DNA of 64,000 nt from Acidobacteriota bacterium. GTDB taxonomy: Bacteria; Acidobacteriota; Terriglobia; Bryobacterales; Bryobacteraceae. The position numbers and the translations under genes were made by a program. The first letter of the stretch is position 1. Each line of letters starts with the position of its first letter. The stretch lies in the NCBI GenBank assembly GCA_025350695.1, contig JANXXI010000005.1, forward strand, positions 1 to 64,000. The letters are read 5' to 3'. This document shows, piece after piece, positions 18,175 through 23,243 of this stretch. Below the pieces are notes generated by a model that saw only the letters and a list, made by a program, of their open reading frames with translations, was not told the origin of the DNA and made no database searches.

Positions 18175-18540
18175 TCACACCTCAATCTATCCCATTTTCA
18201 ACCACTTAACCACCAACCAAATCCCAAAACCCTTGCCCCCGCATACTATCCTTATCACAGAGAGCGAATCCGGGCCCGGTCTACTCTTCAAACCAAAACC
18301 CCTCCCGCACGGGAGGCGGTCTCAGGTCGATCTGGGTTGTTCGCAATACGCAAAGGTCGGGGTTGCCCCGCGTCGAATCACTTGAAAACGGCATTGGTTG
18401 GGGAGGCTTGTGGAAGGATGCAAATGGACGCAATTGTGCCTCAAGCGGGTGCGATGTTTTTTGGATGTTGCGCGGGTGGGGCTGCTTTGCGTTTCAACTT
18501 GATGATTGCCCGCCCAAGGCAACTGGCCTGATATGTCAGA
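18175..18540 (+). repeat. Copy 1 of a duplicated segment (upstream part)
   Basis: This stretch matches 19985-20340. Shared blocks include the Pro-codon-like 'cttgcccccgc', 'agagcgaatccgggcccgg', a hairpin region, and an identical 28-base block at 18376-18403 that recurs at 20158-20185. After that block, copy 1 continues in the opposite orientation relative to copy 2 as far as the word 'aaggcaactggcctgat' (18518-18534). The homology then runs on into a fragment of the cysteine-synthase coding sequence. Frames crossing it (e.g. 18043-18531) are not protein-like. Confidence 0.85.
18246..18402 (+). ncRNA. Candidate structured RNA, copy 1
   Basis: Three consecutive hairpins: CCTCCC-GCAC-GGGAGG (18301-18316), CTCAGGTCGATCTGGG (18321-18336) and CGGGG-TTG-CCCCG (18358-18370), then the conserved 28-base block. 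The stems differ in sequence from copy 2 at 20038-20186 yet still pair. Orientation as an RNA is assumed from the intact copy, which lies upstream of the cysteine operon. Known class not identified. Confidence 0.4.
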
Positions 18541-18696
18541 CTGGCGGCGGCCGCCATCGGCAACACCCCGCTGCTCAAGCTCGAACGGATTGCCGAGGAC
18601 CTCCCAGGCATCGAAATCTACGCTAAGGCCGAATACTTCAACCCTGGCGGCTCAGACATCGTCCCGCCCATTTACGACGATAATGCCTTAGTCTAG
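18541..18696 (+). pseudogene. Cysteine synthase fragment with internal deletion
   Basis: The reading frame gives Ile-Gly-Asn-Thr-Pro-Leu-Leu-Lys-Leu-Glu-Arg-Ile, then 'EDLPGIEIYAKAEYFNPGGS'. It is joined in frame to Asp-Ile-Val-Pro-Pro-Ile-Tyr-Asp and ends at TAG 18694-18696. The two parts match residues ~21-53 and ~233-239 of the intact synthase at 20417-21370, so about 180 codons including the PLP lysine are gone. There is no start codon in frame (TGA precedes it). It is an ancient, diverged partial copy and not functional. Confidence 0.9.
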
Positions 18697-18745: not shown

Positions 18746-18952
18746 TTGAACGAAATCATATTCCTAGTCGAAGACGCACCCGAAGGCGGCCTTTCCGCGA
18801 GGGCGCTTGGGCACTCGATTTTCACTGCGGCTGACTCCGAACAGGAACTCCAAGCTATGGTGAAGGATGCGGTAGCCTGCCATTTTGATGAGGGCGAGGC
18901 CCCCAAGCTCATTAGGCTGCATTACGTTCGCGAAGAAGTGATTCAGGCATGA
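18746..18952 (+). CDS. hicB: HicB-like antitoxin (short form)
   Basis: 68 residues, started by TTG at 18746 with GGAG at 18735-18738. The sequence (Ile-Phe-Leu-Val-Glu-Asp-Ala-Pro-Glu-Gly-Gly-Leu-Ser-Ala-Arg-Ala-Leu, then 'HFDEGEAPKLIRLHYVREEV') is the degraded-RNase-H fold of the short HicB proteins that accompany HicA; it lacks a separate DNA-binding domain. It overlaps the toxin start by ATGA, the standard arrangement. The two genes sit between the two copies of the duplicated segment. Confidence 0.8.
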   Translation: MNEIIFLVEDAPEGGLSARALGHSIFTAADSEQELQAMVKDAVACHFDEGEAPKLIRLHYVREEVIQA

Positions 18953-19188
18953 AGCTTCCCAGGGACTTGAGCGGCGGCGACTTGGTCCGGGCGCTAAAAC
19001 GCCTCGGCTACAAACAGACGCGCCAAACAGGCAGCCACGTACGAATGACGATTTCCGCCCCTCGCCAAGCGCATCTGACCGTTCCTCTCACTCGGGCGAT
19101 ACCAGCGGGAACTCTTGCGGCCCTGATCAAGGACGCGGCAATCCACTTGGAGACGACCGTTGATGATATCTTGAGCAGGATCCGTTGA
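18949..19188 (+). CDS. hicA: HicA mRNA interferase toxin
   Basis: 79 residues, normal for HicA. It is a small dsRBD-like fold with 'SGGDLVRALKRLGYKQTRQTGSHVRM', where the Gly-Ser-His (His30) carries the catalytic histidine, followed by 'HLTVPLTRAIPAGTLAALIKDA'. It cleaves mRNA when not bound by the upstream HicB. The 4-base overlap with hicB implies coupled translation. No frameshift or stop is present, so the module is probably intact. Confidence 0.88.
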   Translation: MKLPRDLSGGDLVRALKRLGYKQTRQTGSHVRMTISAPRQAHLTVPLTRAIPAGTLAALIKDAAIHLETTVDDILSRIR

Positions 19189-19556: not shown

Positions 19557-19984
19557 GATTTTCGCAGGTACTTGGTCGCTCCGTGATGGATTGTTCTCTG
19601 GTCAACCGACATCGAGGCTCAAGGATTGCATGGGCTGAAACTTCTGCGCAGTTAGCCGGGAACGGTTTTATCTAGGCAGTCAAAGTTTGGAGGACAGTTG
19701 CGACAACTCGCCCCTCTGCAAAACGTGTAACATTGGACAAAGCACAAAATGGAATATTCTGAGGACCCAAAAAATCTGGTCTCCTTGCTCTCATTTTGAC
19801 ATGTTGGGAAAGAGTGTTCTCTGTAGGACGGCTAATGCAAGCGGCATTCAATCGCCCATCCTCCTGGATTCATGGTACCGAGACCACTTTGACTATGCCT
19901 TGACCTCAGGGGCGGATGCCACGTTTTACCTCACCGCCAAAACCCCCGTCCCCATCCACTCAAAAACTAAACCCATAACAATCT
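19557..19984. other. Non-coding stretch between the antitoxin and repeat copy 2
   Basis: No gene that I can support. A 102-codon open frame at 19687-19995 has no domain character or ribosome-binding site, and its end runs into the repeat. The base composition is more AT-rich than in neighbouring genes, as expected for decayed or foreign DNA. Confidence 0.5.
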
Positions 19985-20037
19985 CAACCACTTGAAATTC
20001 CCCACGTCTGAATCCCCTTGCCCCCACGCGCTACCTT

Positions 20038-20186
20038 AATTCCAGAGAGCGAATCCGGGCCCGGACTACTCTTCAAACGAAAACCGCACTCCGCAAGGAG
20101 TCCGGTCTCGAATCGATCCGAGTTATTACACACAGCAAAAGCGGGGGAGCCCGCGCAGAATCACTTGAAAACGGCATTGGTTGGGT
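20038..20186 (+). ncRNA. Candidate structured RNA, copy 2
   Basis: Hairpins ACTCC-GCAA-GGAGT (20088-20101), CTCGAATCGATCCGAG (20107-20122) and GCGGG-GGAG-CCCGC (20141-20154) precede the 28-base conserved block. In the second hairpin an A-U pair of copy 1 is a G-C pair here, and a U-G pair is U-A. The first hairpin shares little sequence with copy 1 but forms in both. It lies upstream of a separate strong promoter for the cysteine operon, so it may be an independent RNA or an upstream leader. Confidence 0.4.
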
Positions 20187-20340
20187 GAACCAGCGCCGTC
20201 AGCCTGACAAATCAGGCCAGTTGCCTTGGCCGGCAATCATCAAGTTGGAGCGCAAAACTCCCCCGCCAGCGCTAAATTTAGGAAAACGAATGCATCCGCT
20301 GGCGGCACAACTGCGCCCACTTGCATCCTTACCCAACCCA
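20177..20340. repeat. Segment bounded by 10-bp inverted repeats, inverted relative to copy 1
   Basis: The left repeat TTGGTTGGGT (20177-20186) and right repeat ACCCAACCCA (20331-20340) are inverted with one mismatch. The ~145 bp between them are in opposite orientation to the homologous part of copy 1, where the left repeat survives at 18394-18403. Inside are a perfect 9-bp inverted repeat (CCGCCAGCG 20263-20271 with CGCTGGCGG 20297-20305) and the palindrome CTAAATTTAG. No recombinase gene is in the window. Confidence 0.6.
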
Positions 20341-20380
20341 CTCTCATCTTAAAAAGGAAAAGGTCCTATACATACCATTC

Positions 20381-20409
20381 TTGACTGACATGCACCAGCT
20401 TCCTACAAT
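20381..20409 (+). promoter_or_regulatory. Promoter of the cysteine operon
   Basis: TTGACT (20381-20386), a 17-base spacer and TACAAT (20404-20409). The expected transcription start is at about 20416-20417, at or one base before the ATG at 20417, so the mRNA would be leaderless or nearly so. This also supports 20417 over the upstream in-frame ATGs. Confidence 0.65.
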
Positions 20410-20416
20410 CAAAACT

Positions 20417-21370
20417 ATGCACGCCTCCCTCACCAAGCCCCGAGCCACCCCCGCCGCCGGGTCCCTGCTTGCCTCCATCGGCAACACCCCGCTGCTCAAG
20501 CTCGAACGCATGGCCGAGGACCTCCCTGGCATCGAAATCTACGCCAAAGCCGAATACTTCAACCCCGGCGGCTCCGTCAAGGATCGCCCCGCCCTCAACA
20601 TGATCCTCAAAGGCGAACAGTCCGGCGCGCTCACGCCCGATAAAATCATCATCGACGCCACCAGCGGCAACACCGGCATCGCCTACGCTATGATCGCCGC
20701 CGCCAAGGGCTATAAGGTGAAGCTCTGCCTGCCTGAAAACGCCTCGCCCGAACGTAAGAAAATTCTCGCCGCTTACGGAGCCGAACTCGTCTTGACACCC
20801 GGTGGCGAAGGTTCCGACGGGGCCATTCGCACCGTCCAAAAAATAGTCGCCGCCGACCCTCACCGTTATTTCTACCCCGATCAATACGGCAACCCCGCCA
20901 ACTGGCAAGCTCATTACGAAGGAACAGGCCTTGAAATCTTGGCCCAAACCGAAGAGCGCATCACGCACTTCATCGCCGCCCTCGGCACCAGCGGCACCTT
21001 CATGGGATGCACCCGCCGCTTCAACGATAGCTTGCCCCACGTCACCTGCATCTCAGCCCAACCCGCAACTGGCTTCCACGGTCTTGAAGGGTTGAAGCAC
21101 ATGCCCACGGCCATCGTGCCGCCCATTTACGATGCCACTCTCGCCGACGAAAATTTGTGGATCGAAACCGAAGACGCCTATAAAATGGTCAAGCGGCTAG
21201 CCCGCGAAGAGGGCATCTTAGTCGGCATCTCCGCCGGAGCCAATGTCCACGCCTCGCTCAAAATCGGCAAGCGTCTGGCCGACCAAGGCAAGTCCGGGGT
21301 ACTGGTAACCATCCTCTGCGATGGCGCCGACAAATACTTGAGCGAGCACTTCTGGTCCGACCCCAGCTAA
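20417..21370 (+). CDS. cysM: PLP-dependent cysteine synthase (CysK/CysM family)
   Basis: 317 residues from ATG 20417, chosen from the promoter position and homology. Type-II PLP fold: Lys55 in Gly-Gly-Ser-Val-Lys-Asp is the PLP lysine, Ser-Gly-Asn-Thr-Gly (83-87) binds the substrate carboxylate, Gly-Thr-Ser-Gly-Thr (190-194) holds the phosphate, and Gly-Ile-Ser-Ala-Gly-Ala (270-275) is the C-terminal motif. The three following genes encode a JAMM protease, a ThiS-like sulfur carrier and an E1-rhodanese. This is the gene set of the CysO pathway of Mycobacterium, so the sulfur donor is probably the carrier thiocarboxylate and the substrate perhaps O-phosphoserine; that specificity is inferred. 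Fragments of a paralogue lie at 18541. Confidence 0.9.
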   Translation: MHASLTKPRATPAAGSLLASIGNTPLLKLERMAEDLPGIEIYAKAEYFNPGGSVKDRPALNMILKGEQSGALTPDKIIIDATSGNTGIAYAMIAAAKGYKVKLCLPENASPERKKILAAYGAELVLTPGGEGSDGAIRTVQKIVAADPHRYFYPDQYGNPANWQAHYEGTGLEILAQTEERITHFIAALGTSGTFMGCTRRFNDSLPHVTCISAQPATGFHGLEGLKHMPTAIVPPIYDATLADENLWIETEDAYKMVKRLAREEGILVGISAGANVHASLKIGKRLADQGKSGVLVTILCDGADKYLSEHFWSDPS

Positions 21371-21385
21371 AATAGAAGCTTACGA

Positions 21386-21802
21386 ATGATTCAAATCGAA
21401 CCCGAAGCTTGGCAAGTCATGGTCTCCCATGCCAAGTCCACCTATCCCAACGAGTGCTGCGGCGCTATGATCGGAACTGTCGATGGCGACGTCAAGACCG
21501 TCAAGATCGGCCTAGCCATCGAAAACGCCTTCACCGGCGTGCAACATGAACGCTACGAACTGCGCCCCGAAGACCTCATGAAGGCCGACAAAGAGGCCCG
21601 CGCCCGTGGCATGGACCTCATCGGAATCTTCCACTCGCACCCCGATTGCGATGCCTATTTTTCCGAAACCGATTTGAAGAATTCCTGCCCCTGGTATTCC
21701 TTCGTCGTCCTGTCAATCTATAAAGGAGAGTTCCACCACGCGAACTCGTTCCTTCCCAACGCCGAACAAACCGAGGCCCCCAAAGAGGAGTTGAAATACT
21801 GA
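21386..21802 (+). CDS. mec: JAMM/Mov34 metallopeptidase (Mec+-like)
   Basis: 138 residues. The complete JAMM zinc motif is visible: Glu23 (Pro-Asn-Glu-Cys-Cys-Gly), His83-Ser-His85-Pro, seven residues, Ser93, two residues, Asp96. In Mycobacterium the homologue releases cysteine from the C-terminus of CysO. Here the neighbouring carrier also ends in Gly-Gly-Leu, so the enzyme may first trim the leucine, as QbsD does for QbsE in Pseudomonas; this is inference. Gap of 15 bases after the synthase; one transcript likely. Cytosolic, no signal peptide. Confidence 0.9.
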   Translation: MIQIEPEAWQVMVSHAKSTYPNECCGAMIGTVDGDVKTVKIGLAIENAFTGVQHERYELRPEDLMKADKEARARGMDLIGIFHSHPDCDAYFSETDLKNSCPWYSFVVLSIYKGEFHHANSFLPNAEQTEAPKEELKY

Positions 21803-21806
21803 TTTT

Positions 21807-22082
21807 ATGGCGAAAATTTTGATCCCGACGCCCTTGCGTCAATACGTAGACAAGAAGGATTCCGTGGACGTCACCGGCGCAACCGTTGGCGAGGCGCTCA
21901 ATGCCCTAACCACTGCCCATCCCGACTTGAAGAAGAACCTGTACAACGATGAAGGCAAGCTGCGAAGCTTCGTCAACATCTACTTGAACGACGAAGATAT
22001 TCGTTACATGAAGAAGGAATCGACGCCGCTCGCGGACTCCGACACGATCTCCATCGTCCCCAGCATTGCCGGAGGCCTTTAA
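21807..22082 (+). CDS. cysO: ThiS/MoaD-like sulfur carrier (CysO-type) with masked C-terminus
   Basis: 91 residues with a beta-grasp fold: 'ILIPTPLRQYVDKKDSVDV', 'GEALNALTTAHPDLKKNLYNDEGKLRSFVNIYLNDEDIRYM', and the tail Val-Pro-Ser-Ile-Ala-Gly-Gly-Leu. Carriers activated by an E1 enzyme need a free Gly-Gly end. Here one leucine codon (CTT) follows before the TAA at 22080-22082, so the end must be trimmed or the family tolerates it. It would be adenylated and thiocarboxylated by the next gene's product and give sulfur to the synthase. Four bases separate it from the protease gene. Confidence 0.9.
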   Translation: MAKILIPTPLRQYVDKKDSVDVTGATVGEALNALTTAHPDLKKNLYNDEGKLRSFVNIYLNDEDIRYMKKESTPLADSDTISIVPSIAGGL

Positions 22083-22085
22083 CTC

Positions 22086-23243
22086 ATGGTCAAGCAGCTT
22101 CTGCCTGAAGAAATTCAACGCTACAGCCGCCATTTAATCCTGCCCGAAGTCGGCATGGAAGGCCAAATAAAACTGAAGAATTCCAGCGTGCTTCTGGTCG
22201 GTACCGGCGGCCTCGGCGCACCTCTCGGCTTGTACCTCGCCGCTGCCGGCATCGGCAAAATCGGCCTCGTAGATTTCGATGTCGTCGATTTCTCCAACCT
22301 CCAGCGCCAGATTATCCACGGCACCAAGGACGTCGGTCGCAAGAAGCTCGATTCAGCCGCCGACTCGATGCTCGACATCAATCCGCACCTGGAAATCGTC
22401 AAGTACGAAGTGGCGTTGACCAGCGACAATGCGCTGGACATCATCAAGGATTACGACGTAGTGGCCGACGGCACCGACAACTTCCCCACCCGCTACCTGG
22501 TGAACGATGCCTGCGTACTGCTCGGCAAACCGAACGCGTACGGTTCCATCTTCCGCTTCGAAGGCCAAGCCTCTGTCTTCGGTTACCAGGACGGCCCCTG
22601 CTACCGTTGCCTATATCCCGAACCACCGCCCCCCGGCCTCGTTCCCAGTTGCGCCGAAGGTGGCGTGCTCGGAATTCTACCCGGCATCATCGGCGTCATG
22701 CAAGCCACGGAAGTGGTGAAGCTGCTGCTCGGAATCGGCACAACGCTCAAGGGCCGCCTGCTACTCTACGACGCCTTGAACATGAAGTTCCGCGAATTGA
22801 AGCTCCGCCGGAACCCCGAATGCCCCATCTGCGGCGACCACCGTACGATCACCAAGCTGATCGATTACCAGCAATTCTGCGGCATAATGCCCGAAGCCCC
22901 ACCACCCAGCGCGGAGGAAAAGAAGATGACCGACATTTCACCAAAGCAGGTAAAGGAACGCATCGACCGGAAAGACAATTTCATCCTCATCGACGTTCGC
23001 GAACCACATGAGTACCAGATCTGCAGCATTCCAACAGCGAAGCTGATCCCGCTTGGCGAACTTCCCAAGCACTTAAGCGAACTCGACCCGAACGCCGATT
23101 ACGTAATGCATTGCAAAGGCGGAGGCCGCAGCGCCAAAGCCTGCGAACTGATGCGTGCATCAGGCTTCAAGACCGTACTGAACATGACCGGCGGAATCGG
23201 ATCGTGGAGTGATCAAGTAGATCCCTCAGTTCCAAAGTATTGA
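22086..23243 (+). CDS. moeZ: E1-like adenylyltransferase/sulfurtransferase (MoeZ/MoeB with rhodanese)
   Basis: 385 residues. Residues 1-265 form a ThiF/MoeB domain: ATP loop Gly-Thr-Gly-Gly-Leu-Gly (39-44), Asp63/Asp65 region, the Ser-Asn-Leu-Gln-Arg-Gln segment, zinc cysteines 172/175 and 246/249, and conserved Cys189 in Pro-Ser-Cys-Ala-Glu-Gly-Gly. Residues ~285-385 are a rhodanese domain with active Cys343 in the loop Cys-Lys-Gly-Gly-Gly-Arg-Ser. It adenylates the carrier's C-terminus and converts it to a thiocarboxylate. This fusion is what MoeZ does for CysO in Mycobacterium. It could also serve MoaD or ThiS elsewhere in the genome. Last gene of the operon, three bases after cysO. Confidence 0.93.
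   Translation: MVKQLLPEEIQRYSRHLILPEVGMEGQIKLKNSSVLLVGTGGLGAPLGLYLAAAGIGKIGLVDFDVVDFSNLQRQIIHGTKDVGRKKLDSAADSMLDINPHLEIVKYEVALTSDNALDIIKDYDVVADGTDNFPTRYLVNDACVLLGKPNAYGSIFRFEGQASVFGYQDGPCYRCLYPEPPPPGLVPSCAEGGVLGILPGIIGVMQATEVVKLLLGIGTTLKGRLLLYDALNMKFRELKLRRNPECPICGDHRTITKLIDYQQFCGIMPEAPPPSAEEKKMTDISPKQVKERIDRKDNFILIDVREPHEYQICSIPTAKLIPLGELPKHLSELDPNADYVMHCKGGGRSAKACELMRASGFKTVLNMTGGIGSWSDQVDPSVPKY

Follow-up and report, generated by a model that had tools for sequence, protein, structure and literature searches.

The window, a stretch of 64,000 nucleotides from an Acidobacteriota genome of the Bryobacteraceae, encodes cysM, a JAB protease, a ThiS-like protein and a ThiF-rhodanese in consecutive genes at 20417-23243. 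This gene row resembles the CysO/Mec+ sulphur-carrier cysteine pathway of Actinobacteria. Ahead of it on the plus strand is the cysM promoter (TTGACT-N17-TACAAT, 20381..20409), which is conserved in a congener (G001) and lies outside the nearby segment 20177-20340. A structured RNA gene of about 285 nt has that segment as its 3′ domain, in the normal orientation. The gene, here copy 2, is intact and occupies 20044..20325 of the plus strand, the 3′ end being approximate. It scores 90.7 bits with a covariance model of the 5′ domain (R1) and 101 bits with one of the junction (R2), with a fold z-score of -3.5 and covariation. Hairpins P1 to P3 are followed by a four-way junction (P4 to P7) and a 3′ hairpin, P8. 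A perfect 12-nt palindrome, TCCGGGCCCGGA, forms the tip of P1 at 20054..20065 on the plus strand. The family alignment places a promoter-like region at 19984..20043 on the same strand, with a CTCAACCACTTGA box and then CTTGCCCCC..GCTACCTTAA immediately ahead of the RNA start; we regard it as a putative promoter.

A second copy of the RNA, copy 1, lies upstream and is rearranged. Its 5′ domain, comprising P1 to P3 and the 5′ strands of P4 and P5, is in the normal orientation at 18259..18404 on the plus strand (R1, 80.7 bits). The 3′ domain is inverted, at 18405..18549 on the minus strand, as seen from its match to copy 2 and from an R2 match to the minus strand at 18470-18577. Joined to copy 1 is a truncated cysM fragment at 18550..18677 on the plus strand (families D1 and D7). 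The stretch 18550-18658 is 92% identical to 20471-20579, and an extra piece matches 21112-21132. Between the two RNA copies, at 18746-19188, is a small pair of genes resembling a toxin-antitoxin system; its second frame matches HicA, and its first codes for a short, acidic product, possibly the HicB-type partner.

A sequence-only reading of this DNA had described 20177-20340 as a segment bounded by inverted repeats and flipped relative to its second copy. The arms are there: TTGGTTGGGT at 20177..20186 and ACCCAACCCA at 20331..20340, both given on the plus strand, are complementary with one mismatch. Between them the DNA matches copy 1 in reverse complement (18405-18549 against 20194-20339, 79% identity, E 2e-27), as that reading had claimed. 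The two 12-mers it cited lie one or two bases from the positions given (18516-18527 and 20216-20227). One segment was inverted once, as proposed, but the flipped copy is copy 1 (18405-18549) and not 20177-20340, since the other full-length copies read share the order of copy 2.

The left arm forms the 5′ strand of hairpin P5, where its native partner is GAACCAGCGCCG and not the right arm. The right arm lies directly past the 3′ hairpin of the RNA, and no counterpart of it was seen in the other copies aligned. Arm-like pairs (10 bp, at most one mismatch, span 120-200) number 238 in the window and 176 in a single mononucleotide shuffle. Arms of such quality and distance are common by chance; the flip itself is not a chance match. 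Copy 1 lacks the right arm, entering the cysM fragment at 18550, and with that repeat lost it cannot flip back. About 10 extra bases are present at the left junction of copy 1, so the inversion was not a clean arm-to-arm exchange. The flip in copy 1 is a one-off scar in a broken duplicate and in itself ordinary.

The two copies share a common ancestry. When copy 1 is turned back in silico, the two copies group as sisters (support 100/99), on branches of equal length, 0.15. In stem P4, copy 1 pairs GGGGTTGC with GCAGCCCC while copy 2 pairs differently, CGGGGGAG with CTCCCCCG. As the two P4 strands of copy 1 pair with each other in a fashion unlike that of copy 2, both halves derive from one RNA, which stayed intact for some time after the duplication. 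We therefore think it very probable that a multi-copy structured RNA gene is present here twice in tandem, copy 2 being intact and copy 1 having been duplicated, inverted once and fused by deletion. A tandem duplication together with cysM would have produced copy 1, which would then have gone on evolving for a time as an RNA, acquiring compensatory changes of its own. Its 3′ domain would have inverted a single time, after the divergence from copy 2, probably through an ordinary mistake of repair or replication at short inverted repeats and not through a recombinase. A deletion would have fused copy 1 to the cysM fragment, removing the right arm and the start of cysM. The copies differ by about 21% in their RNA parts and by 8% in the cysM fragment, so a single duplication needs either an RNA evolving faster than cysM or a cysM constrained for longer.

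Searching the same genome (G000) with 20030-20420 returned about 17 dispersed relatives. Aligned, these share a conserved upstream block and a folding region of about 285 nt. In the consensus fold, hairpins P1 to P3 precede a long P4 stem bearing P5 to P7 around the four-way junction, and P8 is short. Compensatory double changes occur at 31 of the 68 pairs in an alignment of 15 copies, in which 94% of the cells are paired against 31-43% with the partners slid. With 64 copies, both sides change in 27 of 29 pairs and 91% of the cells are paired against 29-47% when slid (0 of 500 shuffles); the sequences were here fitted to the model, which biases the alignment in its favour, so the independent test is the 15-copy one. 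G-U cells outnumber A-C cells by 148 to 18 and by 276 to 39 (about 8:1 and 7:1), pointing to the plus strand as the RNA strand. Covariation at the RNA level is overwhelming. No shared reading frame was found among the copies, and a coding function was rejected.

In 54 of the 63 copies displayed, P1 carries at its tip a perfect palindrome of at least 8 nt (8-14 nt), with sequences that differ from copy to copy and centres that vary among GGCC, GCGC and GCGCGCGC. Copies without it are mostly decayed, or the tip is cut off in the stretch displayed. The 5′ hairpin is of another kind in two loci (L097 and L078), whose tip, GCGCGCGC, is palindromic too. In a monomer the middle of the tip would be an unpaired loop with nothing to keep it palindromic, which makes pairing of two RNA molecules a reasonable interpretation. 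Predicted P1 dimers are far more stable than two monomers, as any palindrome would give. The palindromic tip suggests that the RNA may form homodimers, two molecules pairing through P1.

Transcription would start from the conserved upstream box, a putative promoter judged by its conservation: most copies have a TAnnnT-like motif about 10 bases ahead of the RNA start, and further boxes extend to about -115. By inspection, the upstream box resembles the -24/-12 geometry of a sigma-54 promoter, but the spacing is 9 and not 10, and this assignment was rejected. A CsrB-like GGA sponge was likewise set aside by inspection, the GGA motifs being too few and not universal.

R1 and R2 were used with matches accepted at E up to 0.1, and a further model, R3, was built on 64 copies. 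R1 matched 40 times and R2 56 times in the 7.2-Mb genome, and each matched 11 times in the congener. The genome has 60 loci: 34 have both domains in the expected place, 20 have R2 only, 4 have R1 only, and 2 have their halves on opposite strands. The congener has about 11 loci. Of the other genomes of the family, 235 were searched with R2 and none matched. Over 257 genomes of the order, R3 gave credible matches only in the two members of the genus, and over 396 genomes drawn from the phylum it matched only the genome studied here, although searches so large score no more than 8-13 candidates in each genome and may overlook weak relatives. R3 also hit a genome of another genus (G091, E 6e-4), a match that was discarded because it lies in other sequence, has neither the 5′ domain nor an R1 match, and shows many broken pairs. 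Viral contigs, plasmids and phages gave no match to the family. With the Rfam covariance models, the window region and 12 family loci gave nothing above the gathering score, only chance matches. The structured RNA family looks new: it is absent from Rfam, unusually large and restricted to one genus.

The second locus with halves on opposite strands is L056 (C212:15127-15550), where a gap of about 220 bp separates the 5′ and 3′ halves in a geometry different from that of copy 1. Its P4 strands, GGACCGGT and ACCGGTTCC, still match, so L056 was once one RNA, and the rearrangement of decayed copies is not unique to the site of copy 1.

Genes within 700 bp downstream of the copies are on the same strand in 27 cases and on the opposite strand in 25. 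Without a fixed orientation to its neighbours the RNA acts in trans, if at all; we suppose that it would do so probably bound to protein. The functions of 99 neighbour genes vary widely, the commonest family being outer-membrane beta-barrel proteins (8 of 99). Neither a recombinase nor a transposase, integrase, nuclease, reverse transcriptase or other mobility family was seen among the 25 commonest families shown for these genes, and no shared terminal inverted repeats are visible in the family alignments. At all four RNA loci tested, the flanking genes are not adjacent in the congener. Against that genome, a 20-kb control stretch of the window is likewise broken into several blocks, one of them collinear over about 13 kb, so the four synteny breaks are suggestive and not conclusive. 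An asd neighbour common to L051 and to L030 of the congener could mark orthologous loci; about 0.4 shared neighbours are estimated by chance, and the pair was not used.

Six 5′-truncated copies keep their 3′ end (L051, L086, L087, L091, L099 and L107). One pair, L033 and L035, is 99% identical in the transcribed part with unrelated far flanks. Three loci (L048, L049 and L050, on contigs C380, C138 and C212) have sequence in common downstream of the RNA also, from GGAGGCTCAACATGCACAA, and the unit shared by L049 and L050 runs from about -120 to about +560. Reverse-transcriptase matches number 11 in the genome, several of them fragments. The congener has the RNA but no RVT_1 match, and a reverse transcriptase was therefore rejected as the cause of the spread. 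Copying at the RNA level is possible as a source of turnover; ordinary duplication and gene conversion are enough to explain it.

The sequence-only reading had likened the segment upstream of cysM to a phase-variable switch. In that model a recombinase would flip the DNA between the arms and alter expression of the operon. The inverted arms and the opposite orientation of the paralogous copy fit such a switch, but the flip is in the other, decayed copy, which has no right arm, and arms like these are frequent in the window. The segment contains no promoter and is an RNA domain under structural selection, while the cysM promoter outside it is kept in the congener, where cysM has another upstream gene and no RNA. 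Save for the two decayed loci, every copy in which both domains were found has the same orientation, and we consider a switch very unlikely. Equally hard to credit is a cis-acting leader or riboswitch of the cysteine operon: copy 2 is directly upstream of cysM, but the RNA ends ahead of cysM's own promoter, and the even split of downstream strands and the variety of neighbour functions do not suit a leader. Copy 1 could instead consist of two copies that were truncated independently and came to lie head to head on opposite strands, with no inversion, as 5′-truncated copies exist elsewhere and L056 has its halves so arranged. The halves of copy 1, however, meet within a few bases and sum to almost exactly one RNA, its P4 strands are complementary where they differ from copy 2, and the turned-back copy is sister to copy 2 with the support given above, making this origin improbable.

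A more substantial rival concerns the whole family, which might be mainly a mobile or selfish repeat, either MITE-like DNA or reverse-transcribed RNA, whose structure serves its own spread and which is no cellular RNA gene. Its roughly 60 loci without fixed orientation, the separated flanking genes at the four loci, the six 5′-truncated copies, the L033/L035 pair and the 11 reverse-transcriptase matches are consistent with this. Full-length copies, however, conserve the upstream region, which retrocopying would not carry, and there is no transposase or reverse transcriptase among the commonest families of neighbouring genes. The congener maintains the RNA with no reverse-transcriptase match, and the copies are old and diverged with pairing kept and a G-U bias indicating RNA-level selection. 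We regard a mainly selfish repeat as a minority possibility, at about one chance in four. A bolder reading of the family, less likely than not, is put forward tentatively: a new class of dimer-forming structured RNA that may have radiated to about 60 diverged paralogous loci in one genus, with fast turnover, possibly RNA-level copying, and copies at synteny breakpoints that are sometimes rearranged. Many diverged paralogues with one architecture and a palindromic tip make it a testable question why dozens of copies of a probably dimerising RNA are kept and how they spread.

The invertible element fimS is a phase-variable promoter. Like it, the segment studied here is short and lies between inverted repeats; unlike it, the segment has no promoter, no recombinase was seen nearby, one copy is without a repeat and no repeated flipping was seen. 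The LhrC1-7 RNAs of Listeria and the Qrr sRNAs of Vibrio have far fewer copies than the family described here, lack a four-way junction and have known mRNA targets. Both are multi-copy regulatory RNA genes (cited in PMC11697453), and the genes here are multi-copy too. A survey of ncRNAs in 50 genomes reported candidates that are mobile or repeat sequences (PMC11109978); our family is similar in being a structured motif with many copies and inconsistent orientation to genes, but its neighbour-family tally has no transposase, integrase or nuclease association. OLE, ROOL and GOLLD are large ornate structured bacterial RNAs that form homo-oligomers (PMC12286853), a habit that the palindromic P1 tip suggests may be found here also. 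They are unrelated to our family by the Rfam covariance models, and the RNA here is smaller and has many copies per genome. FopS, a multicopy sRNA family of Bacteroides with 12-15 copies per genome and the largest such family in the literature consulted, is alike in that paralogous RNA genes with common sequence and structure are scattered in one genome (PMC11697453). The family described here differs in its RNA of about 285 nt with a four-way junction, in its restriction to one genus, and in its number of loci, about 60 in one 7-Mb genome, roughly four times that of FopS.
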